Virus record (IMG/VR): IMGVR_UViG_3300034072_002229
Coordinates: 1-42,877 of that record
Reading direction: 5' to 3' (one strand)
Length of the DNA: 42,877 nucleotides
From: a virus
Made by a program: the position numbers and the translations under genes. The notes under the pieces were generated by a model. The model had not been told where the DNA came from. It was given only the letters and a program-made list of their open reading frames with translations, and did no database searches. The stretch's first letter is position 1. Each line of letters starts with the position of its first letter. Of the stretch, positions 3,169 through 42,877 are shown piece by piece.

Positions 3169-3491
3169 GCTGCTACCTCGCCAAAAACGAAGGTAATTTG
3201 TTCAACAGTTACACCGTAAAAATCGGCCATCACTGCGTTGTTCTTTTCACCAAGCACTTTGTCTCTGGCACAGTCGAGTAATAGATCTAGGGTGGTTTCT
3301 TCGTAGCCTCCCTCCGCAAGCTCTGACTGGCTAATCGAATCGCAGAATGTGTGCAGTGCGTAGTCGTAAGCCTTGCCATCAACAACGAAAACACGCTCAT
3401 AAGTTTCACCTTTGGCGATCTCTTTGCCGCAGAACTCACACTTATGAAGCTTCATTGCTAATCTGGTGGTCTTTGTTGAAAAGTCGGTCAT
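3165..3491 (-). CDS. Hypothetical protein with a CxxC zinc-binding-like motif (108 aa)
   Basis: Near the N-terminus 'HKCEFCGKEI' (C18, C21), followed about 25 residues later by 'HTFCDS', is a plausible His/Cys zinc-binding set. The C-terminal half is helical and acidic. Its start (3491) overlaps the reverse transcriptase stop by 4 nt, so it is translated from the same message as the DGR. No relation to the DGR mechanism is known to me. Confidence 0.6.
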   Translation of the reverse strand: MTDFSTKTTRLAMKLHKCEFCGKEIAKGETYERVFVVDGKAYDYALHTFCDSISQSELAEGGYEETTLDLLLDCARDKVLGEKNNAVMADFYGVTVEQITFVFGEVAA

Positions 3492-4798
3492 ACCCGCACC
3501 TCTCTTAAATTGTTATTTGTCTTTATCTCAACCAGCTGACCTTCGAGCCGGTAATCAAACTTGCGGTTTAATGTGACTGAGTTGATCCACGGGTAGCGAT
3601 CCAGAATCTTGCCCATCAGCCGGTTGCTATTCGATTGCTTGATGTGGCCTGTGTAGCTGGCAACGACAGAGCGGATATGCCGGATATCTTCTGGTGTTGC
3701 TGTGATTGCATCAGGCGTAACGAACTGGCTTTCAAAGCTGGCCAGCGCATCTTGGAAGTGAGTCACAACACGACGGCGTGTTTGTGTGTGGGTAGGTCTT
3801 ACGACATACCCCAGAAAGTCGATACCATCTGAAAGTGGGCGCAACTTAATGTCCGGCTTTAACTTCAGCCGTAACTGCCGGGCAATAAACTGCTCTATGT
3901 CAGCCTGCCAGCGCTGCAGCTGTGCCTTGTCGTGGTGAATAAGCACAAAGTCATCGACATAACGCAGATAGCGCTTGGCTTTTAAAACGTGCTTCACGAA
4001 TTGATCCAGCGTGTTCAGATACACGTTGGCGAAAAACTGCGAACTCAGGTTGCCGATTGGAAGGCCGCAAGCTGGTGCTGAGTTTTCAAGGCGCTTGTGC
4101 ATTGGCACGATTGAGCGTTCTGCATCACTGCACAGGTACTTCACGCCTTGCTGCAACGGATGATTTCTCAGCAGGGCATGAGTGGCATGCATCACCTGGT
4201 CAGATGCACCAGATTTCACGAGCTTCGCTTTTAACTGACTCCACAGCGTAGGGCGATGGATGGAGTTAAAGAAGTTATGGATATCCAACTGCAGGTAAAA
4301 CGCAGTTGGCGCCTGCCGGATAAACTGCTGCAAACGCTCTACAGCTTTGTGCGAGCCCTTGCCTTTTTGGTTGGCGTAGCTGTCGTAGATAAAAGCCGGC
4401 TGCCACAACTTTTCCAGCTGCGGTACCAACCAGTGATGTACAACGCGGTCTGAAAAATCAGGAGCGTGTATTTCTCTTGCTTTTGGCAGGGCAGCAATAA
4501 AGCATGTGCTTGGCTTTGGCTGCCATGAACAGTCGTTAATGCTGTGCTGTAACTCCAGCAGGCCACTGGTCCAGTTGGTATCGAAATGTAACTGGTTTGA
4601 GCTTGGCTTTTTGCCTTTACGGGCCTTCCCCCAAGCGCTATAAATTTGCTGGAGCGAAACGACTTCATTGCACTGACACTCACCGCCGCGAACCGCACGG
4701 ACACACGCGTTGTTGTTGATGTCGTTGTTGTTGACATTGCCGTTGTTGAAATTGACCACCCAACGGGCAGACTTGTTACCGTTCACTTGAAGCGTCAT
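3488..4798 (-). CDS. DGR reverse transcriptase, with the template repeat encoded in its N-terminus (436 aa)
   Basis: This RNA-directed DNA polymerase copies the template repeat (TR) into mutagenised cDNA that replaces the variable repeats. It has the DGR hallmark 'IGNLSSQ' (G249-Q254), where other RTs carry a different motif, the catalytic YVDD box (Y280-D283), and an N-terminal 'YSAWGKARKGKK' block typical of the family. I place the start at ATG 4798: it has an AAGGGGA Shine-Dalgarno 6 nt upstream and overlaps the Avd stop as ATGA. An upstream TTG at 4822 is possible but less likely. Residues 10-39 are the TR itself (SARWVV..., ...ACVRAVRGG). No in-frame ATG, GTG or TTG lies between the TR and the first RT block, so RT translation must pass through all or most of the TR. 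Confidence 0.96.
   Translation of the reverse strand: MTLQVNGNKSARWVVNFNNGNVNNNDINNNACVRAVRGGECQCNEVVSLQQIYSAWGKARKGKKPSSNQLHFDTNWTSGLLELQHSINDCSWQPKPSTCFIAALPKAREIHAPDFSDRVVHHWLVPQLEKLWQPAFIYDSYANQKGKGSHKAVERLQQFIRQAPTAFYLQLDIHNFFNSIHRPTLWSQLKAKLVKSGASDQVMHATHALLRNHPLQQGVKYLCSDAERSIVPMHKRLENSAPACGLPIGNLSSQFFANVYLNTLDQFVKHVLKAKRYLRYVDDFVLIHHDKAQLQRWQADIEQFIARQLRLKLKPDIKLRPLSDGIDFLGYVVRPTHTQTRRRVVTHFQDALASFESQFVTPDAITATPEDIRHIRSVVASYTGHIKQSNSNRLMGKILDRYPWINSVTLNRKFDYRLEGQLVEIKTNNNLREVRV
4682..4772 (-). repeat. DGR template repeat (TR), 91 bp
   Basis: Ninety-one bp matching both variable repeats end to end without gaps. On the coding strand all 22 adenines lie in a core of AAC/AAT-type codons encoding mostly Asn. 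The 5' flank (GCCCGTTGGGTGGTC) and the GC-rich 3' flank (GCGTGTGTCCGTGC and onward) contain none. The next base 3' of the TR differs from the VRs (TR ..GGTGAG, VR ..GGTCAG). Because every adenine-containing codon ends in C or T, no adenine substitution can create a stop codon. It lies 23 nt past the avd stop, inside the RT gene. Confidence 0.95.
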
Positions 4799-5277
4799 TG
4801 CACATCCCCTTGGGTAGCACAACGTTGCCGATTGTTTAGCCCCATATGAGAGGCGGAACGGTCACTCAGTATCTGAGCACGCTCCTGCTGCGGTGCAGCA
4901 GAATTCTGGCCCTTCTCATGCAATGCGCGTTTCCACCCACCAGCACAGCGGCCTACATCGTCAGCTGCACGAATAATCACTTCAAACTGCTTGAAGCTTT
5001 TAAAGGCATACAGCTGCTTGGCCAGCTGAATAACGACCTTCAGTTCGTCAATTGCCCAAACCAGTTCGTTTACCCAGTGAATTTGACGGCTACGGTCACG
5101 CCAGGCGCGGTTGCATAACTGAACAACAAGCATCACTGCTGTTCTCAAGTTAGCCCCGATCGCGTACTTGTTGTACCGGGCAAAACCCCTGACTGCGTTT
5201 TCAATAGCAACAGCCAGGCTTTCTGCCTTACGAGCAATTTCTGGTAATCCGTTTCTGTTAGCCGTCATAGCATTCAC
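4795..5277 (-). CDS. avd: Avd-like DGR accessory protein (about 160 aa)
   Basis: Avd proteins form helical-bundle oligomers that bind nucleic acid and the RT, and are needed for mutagenic retrohoming. This protein is almost wholly helical. It shows the family pattern 'RYNKYAIGANL' near the start of the bundle, long basic/hydrophobic helices, and 'AGGWKRAL' at the end of the last helix. A polar tail of about 45 aa follows, which is longer than I would expect. The ORF begins with GTG at 5277; ATG at 5268 is an equally plausible start, and neither has a strong ribosome-binding site. Its stop overlaps the RT start by 4 nt. Confidence 0.88.
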   Translation of the reverse strand: MNAMTANRNGLPEIARKAESLAVAIENAVRGFARYNKYAIGANLRTAVMLVVQLCNRAWRDRSRQIHWVNELVWAIDELKVVIQLAKQLYAFKSFKQFEVIIRAADDVGRCAGGWKRALHEKGQNSAAPQQERAQILSDRSASHMGLNNRQRCATQGDVQ

Positions 5278-5300: not shown

Positions 5301-5672
5301 TTACTGACCGCCGCGAACCGCACGGACACACGCGTAGTCGTAGATGACGCCGCTGCCGACACCGCCGCCGTCGAAACCGACCACCCAACGGGCAGACTCT
5401 GGACGCCATGCACATGGAGTGCTTGTCCAGTACCAATCGCTTTCAGTATCCGGAAAAGCTTCTGTATCGATTGCCGGGTCGTATTTAGTGCGGTGGACAA
5501 TGGTTTGCAGCTCGTCGACTGTGGGTAAACGCCAGCCTTCACCTAAGGCCTCAACGGCCTTTACTGCATCTTCAAAAGTGACATCACTTGCCACCGTGTT
5601 TTGGCTCCACACCAGACCTGTTAAGGTGTCTGTTACTGTTTTGCCGTCTTCGCTTTTAGAAAAACGTGACAT
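5301..5672 (-). CDS. DGR target protein 1, DUF1566/Lcl C-type-lectin-like fold (123 aa)
   Basis: A compact single domain with the DUF1566 signatures 'TGLVW', 'EALGEGWRLPTVDEL' and 'WYWTSTP', ending in the variable repeat. The C-terminus 'ACVRAVRGG' is the invariant end shared with target 2 and the template. DGR diversity typically sits on this lectin-like fold, on the ligand-binding face. There is no signal peptide, transmembrane segment or fibre shaft, so it looks like a free-standing binder or a decoration added to something else. The start ATG 5672 has AGAAGGA upstream. Confidence 0.9.
   Translation of the reverse strand: MSRFSKSEDGKTVTDTLTGLVWSQNTVASDVTFEDAVKAVEALGEGWRLPTVDELQTIVHRTKYDPAIDTEAFPDTESDWYWTSTPCAWRPESARWVVGFDGGGVGSGVIYDYACVRAVRGGQ
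5307..5397 (-). repeat. DGR variable repeat VR1, 91 bp
   Basis: Aligned to the template without gaps, it has 16 differences, all at template adenines (coding strand); the 69 non-adenine positions are identical. Eleven of the 12 mutable codons encode a different residue from the template (Asn to Gly, Asp, Ser or Tyr; Asp26 to Val, in RT numbering). It ends at the target gene's stop codon. Confidence 0.95.
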
Positions 5673-5713
5673 TGGTTTTTTCCTTCTGGGTTGGTTAAAT
5701 CAAAAAACAGAAA

Positions 5714-6151
5714 CTACTGACCGCCGCGAACCGCACGGACACACGCGCCGTAGTCGAGGCCGTTGCCGTAGACATAGCCGCTGTCGAAATCGACCACCCA
5801 ATGGGCAGACTCTCTGTTCCAGGCGCATGGCGTTGCCGTCCAGTACCAGGTGCTTTTGGTGTCTGGATACTTGTCGGTATCAATGCATGGGTCGTGACGT
5901 TCTAAGTCGACCAGAGTTAGCAGTTCTTCACGAGTAGGCAGGCGCCAGCCTTCGCCTAATTCGGCTACAGCGTTTTCAGCTTTTTCGAAGTTCACTCGTT
6001 CGCCGTCGAGCAGTGTCTTGCTCCACTCAAGGCCTGTGGCTGGCTCAAGTACTGTTGCAGCAGCTACTGCGGCATCAGTAGTTGGTGAACCGATGGCCGT
6101 TAAGTGAACGTTTACCGTTGCACCCTTTTCGCAAGTAATATGTAAATTCAT
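5714..6151 (-). CDS. DGR target protein 2, DUF1566/Lcl C-type-lectin-like fold (145 aa)
   Basis: Paralogue of target 1 with the same core signatures ('TGLEWSK', 'ELGEGWRLPTREEL', 'WYWTATP') and the same C-terminal end. It has about 30 extra N-terminal residues (MNLHITCEKGATVNVHL...), which could mediate attachment or oligomerisation. No signal peptide is visible. It is the first gene of the DGR in transcription order. ATG 6151 has an AAAGG ribosome-binding site 8 nt upstream. Confidence 0.9.
   Translation of the reverse strand: MNLHITCEKGATVNVHLTAIGSPTTDAAVAAATVLEPATGLEWSKTLLDGERVNFEKAENAVAELGEGWRLPTREELLTLVDLERHDPCIDTDKYPDTKSTWYWTATPCAWNRESAHWVVDFDSGYVYGNGLDYGACVRAVRGGQ
5720..5810 (-). repeat. 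DGR variable repeat VR2, 91 bp
   Basis: A gapless match to the template with 14 differences: 13 at template adenines and one at a non-adenine (template G to A at 5802, coding strand, Arg to His), near the 5' end of the repeat. Eleven of 12 mutable codons differ from the template residue. The substitution pattern is independent of VR1. Confidence 0.95.
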
Positions 6152-14789: not shown

Positions 14790-14992
14790 CGTTTAACTTG
14801 GCCGCTGATCCGGCTTTGGCAGAAGCTGAGGCAGTAAATAAGGTTGCATGCCTGTGGCTTCATAACTGGCGTAACAACCTCATGGCCAAGCCGGATATAG
14901 ATCGAAAGTTGGCAGCAATGCCGGAACCAGAGCGAAGCCGGACGGTTGCAGCGTTAAATCGGAATAAGAAGCTATTTAAGCGGGGTGACTGA
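14786..14992 (+). CDS. Small hypothetical protein (68 aa)
   Basis: A basic helical protein ('NKVACLWLHNWRNNLMAK') translationally coupled by 4-nt and 1-nt overlaps between P and the recombinase. Function unknown. Confidence 0.6.
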   Translation: MTFNLAADPALAEAEAVNKVACLWLHNWRNNLMAKPDIDRKLAAMPEPERSRTVAALNRNKKLFKRGD

Positions 14993-16206
14993 TGCAGTCT
15001 TTATCTGTCGTTATATCTGATGCAGCCATCACCCGGCATGCAGCTGATGCTGATGTGGGCGAACTGCGTGATCAGCGTCAGCCCCTTGCGCTTCGTTACC
15101 GTTCTGGCCGTCAAAAGGCTACCTGGTACTTAGTGCAGTATCAAAACCGGATCAAGATACGTCACCGCCTTGGCTACTGGCCGACACTGAAAACCAAAGA
15201 TGTAGTGGCAATGGTACCGGAGTTACTGAGCAAGTTAACTGCTGGTCAGCAGGTGAAAACAGGCACCTTTGAAACTGTTGGCCAGCTGCTTGAATGGTAC
15301 CGGGGCAGAACTGCCAAAGAAGTAACGAAATCACCGGAATGGAGAAGGGCAGTTGAAAGCGCGATTGATGCTCACTTATTGCCACTTCTTGGCGCCTTAC
15401 CTGTTGGCCAACTGACTAAAGCGGTGCTTGATACCCAGCTGATCCTGCCTTTGGTGAACTCTGATTTAAAGCCGTCGACCATGCGCAAGTACTGGGGAAC
15501 ATTAAAGACGGCCGTAAAACTGGCTGCAAAGCTGGAACTGCTGGCCACTGACTATATGGCGGGAATGAAGTTTGTCGACCATGTAACGAAGCGGATCAAG
15601 CCGAAGGAAAGCCGGTTGCGTGTAACCAGCCTGCCGCTGGTGTGGGAGCAATTGCAACGTGCTGCCGTTGATGGTTGGGCGCTGGTCTGGCTGATGCTGC
15701 TGTTTGGTACCCGCATTGGTGAGACGCGGCAGCTACGTTGGTCCTACATCGATTTTACAGCAGGCATGGTGGCTATTCCGGCGCAGATCACAAAAACCGA
15801 TGTGACGCATGTTCTACCTGTTACCGCGCTGGCTAAAGAGTTTCTGGATAAGTTCAGGACTGTTCGAGAGTCATTCGGTATTTATTCCGATTTCCTGTTT
15901 CCATCAGGTACTGAAGCCATAAGCAGCCAGGCAGCGCAAAAGCATATTCAGCAGGTGAGTAAGGGCAAATGGTCGGCCCACGATTTGCGCAAAATGGCTC
16001 GTTCTGCCTGGGCAGAGTTGGGCATTGATTACTGGATGGCCGAGCGCCTGCTGAACCATAAACCCAAAGGGCTGGATGCGGTTTACATCAAAACCGAAGC
16101 CTTATCAGAGCGGTTAAAAGCAGTGAACGTGTACCACGATTGGCTGATAAAGCAGGGTTTAAATGTAGGCACAGTGCAGGCATTGAAAAAAGCGGTGAAT
16201 GCTTAG
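14992..16206 (+). CDS. Tyrosine recombinase / phage integrase within the early operon (404 aa)
   Basis: Contains an N-terminal arm-binding-like region, a core-binding SAM-like domain, and the catalytic domain with R241 (GTRIGETRQ), H330-x-x-R333 (HDLRKM), H356 (LLNHKP) and nucleophile Tyr365. All catalytic residues are present. The gene directly follows the replication genes, an unusual place for a phage integrase, and no excisionase is recognised beside it. It may be the phage's own integrase or a resolvase-like enzyme; a second integrase lies at 41639-42877. Confidence 0.88.
   Translation: MQSLSVVISDAAITRHAADADVGELRDQRQPLALRYRSGRQKATWYLVQYQNRIKIRHRLGYWPTLKTKDVVAMVPELLSKLTAGQQVKTGTFETVGQLLEWYRGRTAKEVTKSPEWRRAVESAIDAHLLPLLGALPVGQLTKAVLDTQLILPLVNSDLKPSTMRKYWGTLKTAVKLAAKLELLATDYMAGMKFVDHVTKRIKPKESRLRVTSLPLVWEQLQRAAVDGWALVWLMLLFGTRIGETRQLRWSYIDFTAGMVAIPAQITKTDVTHVLPVTALAKEFLDKFRTVRESFGIYSDFLFPSGTEAISSQAAQKHIQQVSKGKWSAHDLRKMARSAWAELGIDYWMAERLLNHKPKGLDAVYIKTEALSERLKAVNVYHDWLIKQGLNVGTVQALKKAVNA
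16165..16187. repeat. 23-bp direct repeat, copy 1 (inside the recombinase 3' end)
   Basis: An exact 23-bp copy of 16287-16309, 122 bp apart, lying in the last codons of the recombinase gene. The following bases also match loosely (a GCTGGTAAG block occurs after each copy), which suggests a duplicated segment of about 70 bp. Confidence 0.85.
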
Positions 16207-41638: not shown

Positions 41639-42877
41639 CTAAACTACTTTCAGTCCTTTGTATCCGGACATAGCAAAGTTGCCAGTTGCCGCTTGCTCTA
41701 TATGATTGCTCCACCATTCCATAAGTTTACGCCGCCGTTCTAAATAGGTTGCTCTGTTGTAAGCAGAACGAACTTGGTTCTTATCCTGGTGCGCAAGTGC
41801 TGCCTCTATCACATCATCATCAAAGCCTTGTTCGTTTAATGTGGTGCTGGCCAAAGCTCGCAAGCCATGAGAAACCAAAACATCCTTATAGCCCATTCTT
41901 TGCAGAGCTCTGTTAGCCGTTTCGGAATGGGTAGGCTGATTATGGCGCCGTTCTGATGGAAAGATGAAAGGAGAGTTTCCGCTAATTGGTTTCAGCATAT
42001 CCAGTAGGGCTATCGTCTGTGGTGTCAGCGGTACAACATGTTCTTTCTTCTTTTTCATTCGTTCAGCTGGCACAGTCCACACCTGCTGTTCAAAATCAAT
42101 TTCATCCCAGCTGGCGCCAGCGGCTTCTGACGGCCGGACCATAGTATGAAGTTGCCACTCCAAAAGGCACCGGGTGACGATGCGAATTTGTGCGTAGCTG
42201 ATGGCCTTCATCAGTTCTGGCAATTCGTTAGGTTTAATAGTTGGCATGTTCACAGGTTTGGCTGCTATGAATGCGGCCTTAATGCCGGCCAACTGATTGT
42301 GCTGAACAATACCGGTATTCACACACCAGGTCATGAGTTCATTCAATCGCTGGCAAACCCGGGTGATCGTCTCCAGTTTCTTCGCTGACTCAAGTGGTTT
42401 TAGTGTGTCAATTACCAGCGGGGCAGTAAGCTCTTTAATGGGCAGTTTCCCCAGCCTTGGGTAAAGATACATTTCGAAGGTTCGGCGAATATTAAACGCA
42501 TGCCGCTCACCGACCGCTGCAAACTTCACTAGGAACCATTTTGCCGCTACGTCGGCAAGAGAGGTGCTTATTTCCTTTCTTCGGCTTTCGTCGTTTTCCT
42601 CTATCCACTTCGCTGGATCAATCTTTTGATCTAGTAACTCACGGTATTGGGCTCGTAACTTTCTTGCCTGCGACAAAGTAGTCTCAGGATAAGTGCCGAT
42701 CTTTATTGTGTTTGGGGTGTCGAGGTAGGGGCGTTTATATCTAAATAGCCAGGATTTATTGCCTGCAGTAGTTACTCTCAGCTCCAAACCAGCCCCGTCA
42801 TACAGTGAATAGAGCTTGTCCTGCGGCTTGGCTGATTTAACTTCAGTATCGCTCAAAGGCGTTGTTTTACGGGCCAT
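41639..42877 (-). CDS. P4-type tyrosine integrase with DUF4102 arm-binding domain (412 aa)
   Basis: N-terminal DUF4102 domain ('LSDTEVKSAKPQDKLYSLYDGAGLEL...'), core-binding domain, and catalytic residues R248 (MVRPSEAAG), H337-x-x-R340 (SHGLRA), H363 (LAHQDK) and Tyr373 (AYNRATY). It is complete, with its ATG at the window edge. Its 3' end abuts the tRNA fragment. If window ends 1 and 42877 meet in the circular phage, it would also be the last gene of the leftward operon. Confidence 0.93.
   Translation of the reverse strand: MARKTTPLSDTEVKSAKPQDKLYSLYDGAGLELRVTTAGNKSWLFRYKRPYLDTPNTIKIGTYPETTLSQARKLRAQYRELLDQKIDPAKWIEENDESRRKEISTSLADVAAKWFLVKFAAVGERHAFNIRRTFEMYLYPRLGKLPIKELTAPLVIDTLKPLESAKKLETITRVCQRLNELMTWCVNTGIVQHNQLAGIKAAFIAAKPVNMPTIKPNELPELMKAISYAQIRIVTRCLLEWQLHTMVRPSEAAGASWDEIDFEQQVWTVPAERMKKKKEHVVPLTPQTIALLDMLKPISGNSPFIFPSERRHNQPTHSETANRALQRMGYKDVLVSHGLRALASTTLNEQGFDDDVIEAALAHQDKNQVRSAYNRATYLERRRKLMEWWSNHIEQAATGNFAMSGYKGLKVV

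Follow-up and report, generated by a model that had tools for sequence, protein, structure and literature searches.

Results

Organization of the DGR locus

The window analyzed here comprises positions 1-42,877 of IMG/VR record IMGVR_UViG_3300034072_002229, which represents a lambdoid temperate phage. Two tyrosine integrase genes are present in this single record, at 14992-16206 on the plus strand and at 41639-42877 on the minus strand. A DGR is encoded on the minus strand in the order target gene 1 (5714-6151), target gene 2 (5301-5672), avd (4795-5277) and the reverse transcriptase (RT) gene (3488-4798). The product of the RT gene has 436 aa and matches PHROG 1423 (5.7e-99) as well as the RT of the BPP-1 DGR (PDB 8ub7; 7.8e-32). 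In the alignment of the RT family the SQ motif, IGNLSSQFF, is invariant and the YVDD motif is conserved. The avd gene, whose start is likely ATG 5268, encodes an Avd-like four-helix bundle matching PHROG 3206 at about 6e-16 (6.3e-16); against the Pfam bAvd family it scores 37 bits, slightly below the cut-off of 40.

Both target genes encode an Lcl_C domain (Pfam, 3e-23 and 4e-27), which we take to be a C-type-lectin-like fold. VR1 (5720-5811) and VR2 (5307-5398), on the minus strand, occupy the 3′ ends of target genes 1 and 2, respectively, and end at the stop codon. When the template repeat (TR) was extended to 4780-4677, 15 of the 22 mismatches of VR1 (hypergeometric P 2.3e-06) and 19 of the 23 mismatches of VR2 (P 4.5e-11) fell on a template A. 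With a DGR-type RT, an A-specific TR/VR pair, a VR at the 3′ end of a lectin-like target and an Avd, the locus has the parts that define a DGR. The two small Lcl_C target genes, in tandem at 5301-6151, lie in a leftward early operon beside DUF2303 and away from the tail genes; their diversified products may therefore be something other than tail fibres.

The template repeat lies within the RT gene

The TR core occupies positions 4682-4773 of the minus strand, wholly within the RT gene, and is read as RT codons 9 (in part) to 39 in the frame used by the targets. RT residues 1-8 precede the TR, residues 9-39 are encoded by it, residues 40-44 form a linker, and RT homology covers residue 45 and beyond. 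The first-pass annotation of this DNA had placed a TR of 91 bp inside the RT gene; the embedding is borne out, with the length of the core corrected to 92 nt. Its choice of ATG 4798 as the RT start also stands, with AAGGGG upstream at 4811-4806 and a 4-nt overlap with the TGA of avd (the shared ATGA). The in-frame ATG, GTG and TTG codons near the RT start are TTG 4822, ATG 4798, GTG 4786 and GTG 4759. That no start codon lies between the TR and the RT domain, as had been claimed, is correct in that the next one is the TTG of codon 124 (4429), which falls within the RT polymerase; however, GTG 4759, located inside the TR and devoid of a Shine-Dalgarno sequence, had been overlooked. Since similarity to the BPP-1 RT sets in at residue 45, which is 5-6 residues past the TR, and the first later start is codon 124, an RT start after the TR is ruled out in the window. 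Judged from the sequence, the TR would be translated, mostly or fully, from any plausible standard RT start codon.

Relatives of the locus were drawn from IMG/VR and from genome contigs, and the loci counted were those with a detectable A-specific TR/VR pair. In all 77 related loci the TR lies in the stop-to-stop frame of the RT and is preceded by an ATG; it is read in the target frame in 75 of them, and 73 have the exact 4-nt ATGA overlap of avd and RT. A stop codon between the TR and the RT was found in no member with a detectable TR. The same method placed the TR in the RT frame and in the Asn frame in 2/40 loci of the BPP-1 family, 0/70 of the RT-15 family and 25/64 of an ACA/VHML-type set; because the loci share kinship, these counts are not independent. 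In the phylogenetic tree, all members of the window family group in a single clade (100/100), with the RT-15 family as its sister (100/99). The latter relation unites two long branches and was flagged by the tree program, but it is backed by the shared RNA topology described below. The ACA-type cases are found on a branch separate from the window family, and the TR-in-RT arrangement has therefore probably arisen at least twice. Within the window family, the sequences indicate that the location of the TR inside the RT gene is a trait of the clade, which extends to RTs of only about 52% identity.

It is very improbable that the RT is translated from a start after the TR or late within it and that the upstream open frame is incidental. 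Such a start codon is available in many relatives, as 57/77 have an ATG, GTG or TTG between the TR and the RT core, and an ATT is found at RT codon 52 of the window. However, the remaining 20 loci, the window among them, have no ATG, GTG or TTG in this interval, and RT homology is already present at residue 45. The upstream ATG is accompanied by a Shine-Dalgarno-like site and by the exact overlap with avd. The linker between the TR and the RT fold varies in length by whole codons only, and its pN/pS of 0.21 resembles that of the RT body (0.23-0.33). A linker that is always in frame and has an RT-like pN/pS supports translation through the TR into the RT, and a later RT start was rejected on these grounds.

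An RNA fold in the avd end pairs with both flanks of the TR

Synonymous-codon identity relative to expectation is raised in avd from codon 121 onward (1.27-1.49) and in RT codons 1-40 (1.21-1.33), and drops to 0.77-0.79 directly past the TR. Codon conservation in the TR part is expected, because the TR must match the target; the conservation in the avd end and in RT codons 1-8 is not expected from target matching. Codons 121-160 of avd (4798-4917) encode a C-terminal tail that extends past the bAvd domain, and the DNA of this tail holds the fold of the template RNA. In the window family, both Avd and the RT carry tails that are read from the template RNA.

On the minus strand, the avd end contains hairpin H1 (4876-4911), which is composed of an outer helix P1 (4911-4909/4878-4876) and a stem (4903-4895/4891-4883) and shows covariation at all 8 modelled pairs, followed by the motif ACTGAGT (4864-4870), invariant in 38 aligned relatives, and by hairpin H2 (4839-4854; GCCUC-UCAUAU-GGGGC). 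In 38 diverse sequences, 97.2% of the cells of the 13-pair P1/H1/H2 fold are paired, compared with 31-54% when the fold is slid, and 82 cells with double changes contrast with 24.6 after shuffling. When the entire stretch is folded, two long-range helices emerge, P2 and P3. In P2, avd positions 4856-4862 pair with 4784-4778, which belong to RT codons 5-7 and lie just 5′ of the TR. In P3, avd positions 4868-4873, which include the first three bases of ACTGAGT, pair with 4680-4675 in RT codons 40-42 (GAG TGT CAG), directly 3′ of the TR. Among 73 sequences, P2 is 98.2% paired, with 42 pair-keeping double changes on the tree against 0-1 for slid helices; the corresponding values for P3 are 99.5%, 9 and 0. 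One P3 pair links an avd codon AAA/ACA/ATA (Lys/Thr/Ile) to an RT codon TTT/TGT/TAT or TGT (Phe/Cys/Tyr). As this pair joins codons of both genes, one Avd residue (136) and one RT residue (41) co-vary through RNA.

The fold of the window itself is moderately better than that of shuffled sequences (z -2.64); because this calculation left out the TR and the flank 3′ of it, P3 cannot appear there. Of 83 family loci searched with R1, our covariance model of the module, 81 gave a match (E <= 0.01). Outside the family R1 gave no convincing match; the single weak one (E 0.037, locus L246), well upstream of the TR, was taken as chance. An Rfam search of the window region gave no match even at E 5. With regard to a 3′ spacer of the BPP-1 type, neither codon constraint after the TR nor a match to the Rfam model Phage_DGR (RF03022) was found. 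The lack of synonymous constraint suggests that a constrained 3′ spacer is missing, although a short element could escape such a measure.

The RT ribosome site and its possible coupling to avd

In most relatives the 3′ arm of H2 provides the Shine-Dalgarno sequence of the RT. The window and loci L004-L006 have an RT start shifted downstream by about 36 nt, which is again inside a hairpin. This RT-start hairpin of the window lineage (4796-4824, minus strand) holds both the Shine-Dalgarno sequence (4811-4806) and the start codon, and shows compensatory changes in L006. The Shine-Dalgarno core is unpaired with a mean probability of 0.16, compared with 0.33 for similar sites inside the RT gene. 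A hairpin over the Shine-Dalgarno sequence, combined with the ATGA overlap, is consistent with translational coupling of the RT to avd. The first-pass annotation had proposed that one RNA serves both as the template and as the RT message. This is supported indirectly, by the frequency of the ATGA overlap and by the position of the ribosome site in a conserved hairpin.

Compact packing by itself is a possible, if somewhat doubtful, explanation of the overlap. In this case the overlap would reflect genome economy, the template and the message would be separate transcripts, and no regulatory link would connect the two. Phage genomes are compact, the authors of DiGReF proposed that the RT and TR RNAs are transcribed separately (PMC3521204), and the ACA/VHML family arrived at the overlap on its own. 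However, the arrangement is universal in the clade across the whole range of RT identity, and the hairpin over the ribosome site and the ATGA overlap have been kept beyond the needs of packing. Packing alone is compatible with the RNA fold around the TR and denies the coupling only.

The Asn-rich tag

The suggestion that the Asn-rich tag encoded by the TR could have a role of its own was not supported. Reading of the TR in the target frame, which had been reported for the window, applies there and in most of its relatives but is not obligatory in the family. In the sister loci L044 (3348-4700) and L076 (3327-4724) the RT is intact and reads the TR in a non-target, Thr-rich frame; these two loci constitute a natural frame-switch test. 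We consider it unlikely that the tag is a functional protein part that binds the template RNA, Avd or the target and that selection for it keeps the TR in the target frame. The prevalence of the target frame among the relatives, a weak likeness of the tag to the Lcl_C C-terminus (E 0.08) and a low pN/pS in the stretch comprising the TR and the codons before it would agree with such a function. However, the match between TR and target dictates the amino acids of the TR in any case, the conservation is at the codon level, and all 66 RT-15 relatives with a TR overlapping the RT frame use a non-target frame. In the AlphaFold model of the RT, the pLDDT of the tag is about 46-56, compared with >90 for most of the RT core. 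The pLDDT of the model was 88.4 with 57 sequences (60 with 13), and the tag was uncertain in both cases. The loci with other frames, the frames of the RT-15 family and the low pLDDT imply that the amino acids of the tag are probably not under selection. A role of the tag is thus disfavoured by sequence and model alike, and RNA folding together with avd-RT translational coupling would explain the embedding of the TR best.

Discussion

The BPP-1 DGR (avd-TR-spacer-brt; Rfam RF03022) shares with the window DGR the A-specific transfer from TR to VR, an Avd and a homologous RT (PDB 8ub7). As the first-pass annotation had correctly stated, the best-known DGR is arranged differently, since in BPP-1 the TR is followed by a spacer of about 140-150 nt and then by the RT. 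The template RNA of BPP-1 extends into the 3′ end of avd; the spacer recruits RT-Avd and primes, and the avd end stops copying (PMC12875486). The Rfam Phage_DGR element of BPP-1 sits after the TR. Thus, BPP-1 has a structured 3′ spacer after which the RT starts, whereas in the window clade no constrained 3′ spacer was seen and the TR is inside the RT gene. In our alignment of the BPP-1 family (L104, L189-L240), a covarying 7-bp helix connects the avd 3′ end (GGGGCAA) with the spacer (TTGTCCT) across the TR.

In the ACA phages, the TR is translated in the target frame as the RT N-terminus (PMC10612066). This feature is common to Pseudoalteromonas ACA1/ACA2, Vibrio VHML, VP58.5 and the window, and ACA1 and VP58.5 also share the 4-nt avd/RT overlap. 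Like these DGRs, the window has a TR wholly in the RT open reading frame, read in the target frame, with an ATG upstream. The ACA/VHML DGRs differ from the window in their distant RT (about 33%) on a separate tree branch, in a target of the SUMF1/FGE type, and in the distance of about 130 nt, with some codon constraint, between the TR and the RT core. Structural group 3 of DiGReF is defined by an overlap between the TR and the RT open reading frame (PMC3521204). This is a purely positional class, with the overlap at the 5′ or the 3′ end, and it makes no statement on frame, RNA or translation. The Ideonella plasmid locus L107 (3358-6757) contains two tandem avd-RT pairs.

The DGRs with the RT-15 RNA (RF03018; Pseudomonas phages Cruim01 and LPPA56, Burkholderia phage Magia) have the sister RT clade and, like the window, a structured RNA 5′ of the TR with the unit 3bp-5nt-hairpin-4nt-3bp and equivalents of P2 and P3 (TTGAATCT with AGATTCAA). 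They differ from the window in that the RNA module is mostly intergenic and that a TR in the RT open reading frame is never in the target frame; the RT of this family probably starts within or just after the TR. Comparison of RF03018 with R1 gave no covariance-model match in either direction. Since the 5′ module of RT-15 clamps both TR ends with the same topology, the two RNAs work alike though they are not the same family. The clamp of RT-15 is an observation of the present analysis outside the Rfam definition, as the 3′ strand AGATTCAA is located past the TR and the Rfam model ends before it. Locus L097 (3687-3978) and the RT-15 family suggest that the RT-15 RNA of Rfam serves a family of DGRs as template RNA.

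We propose, and consider probable on comparative sequence grounds, that the template RNA of the window family is built wholly from coding sequence, that a fold on the avd side clamps both TR ends, and that the RT is made through coupling to avd. The features in favor are the TR in the RT frame, the covariation in P1, H1, H2, P2 and P3, the codon constraint ending with the TR, the ATGA overlap, and the RT homology right past the TR. The template RNA would comprise about 240 nt (roughly 4917-4675), from the last part of avd into the first part of the RT gene. The avd-side module (P1/H1, ACTGAGT and H2) would pair with both TR flanks, the 5′ one through P2 and the 3′ one through P3, and hold the TR as a loop between the two helices. 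This clamp may set where the RT starts and stops copying the TR. It would then do the job which in BPP-1 is done by the 3′ spacer together with the avd end, and both marks would come from avd. Most of the RT would be made by ribosomes that come from avd and open the hairpin covering the RT start, and once folded as a template the RNA would be a poor RT message. As the same bases start the RT, template folding and translation should compete. The Asn-rich tag would be a tolerated by-product of keeping the TR stop-free in frame.

It is tempting to combine these elements into a two-state switch, which we put forward tentatively. The folded RNA would clamp the TR, hide the RT ribosome site and serve as a template, with priming from the avd side and no 3′ spacer involved, whereas ribosomes passing through avd would open the clamp, leading to synthesis of the RT. 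Avd 136 and RT 41 would co-vary because their codons pair across the TR. The clamp, the hairpin over the ribosome site and the coupling may also serve different ends.

Translation of the TR as an RT extension is already known from the ACA phages (PMC10612066), and TR-RT overlap is a known class (PMC3521204). In the literature we found no description of a rule valid across the clade, of a clamp embedded in coding sequence or of the absence of a 3′ spacer, though an earlier mention is possible. New here is the template RNA fold in the avd end that clamps both TR ends, which the first-pass annotation had overlooked. It provides a rare case in which residues of two proteins co-vary through RNA pairing and not through protein contact. 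Annotating or mutating the avd end and the RT start will disturb the template. The compact RNA of about 240 nt could be used for direct testing or for engineered diversification. While the control RNA of BPP-1 lies in the spacer past the TR, a large phage clade is predicted to manage without it by means of a fold in two protein genes. This would be a second model for how the RT of a DGR is told where to start and stop.
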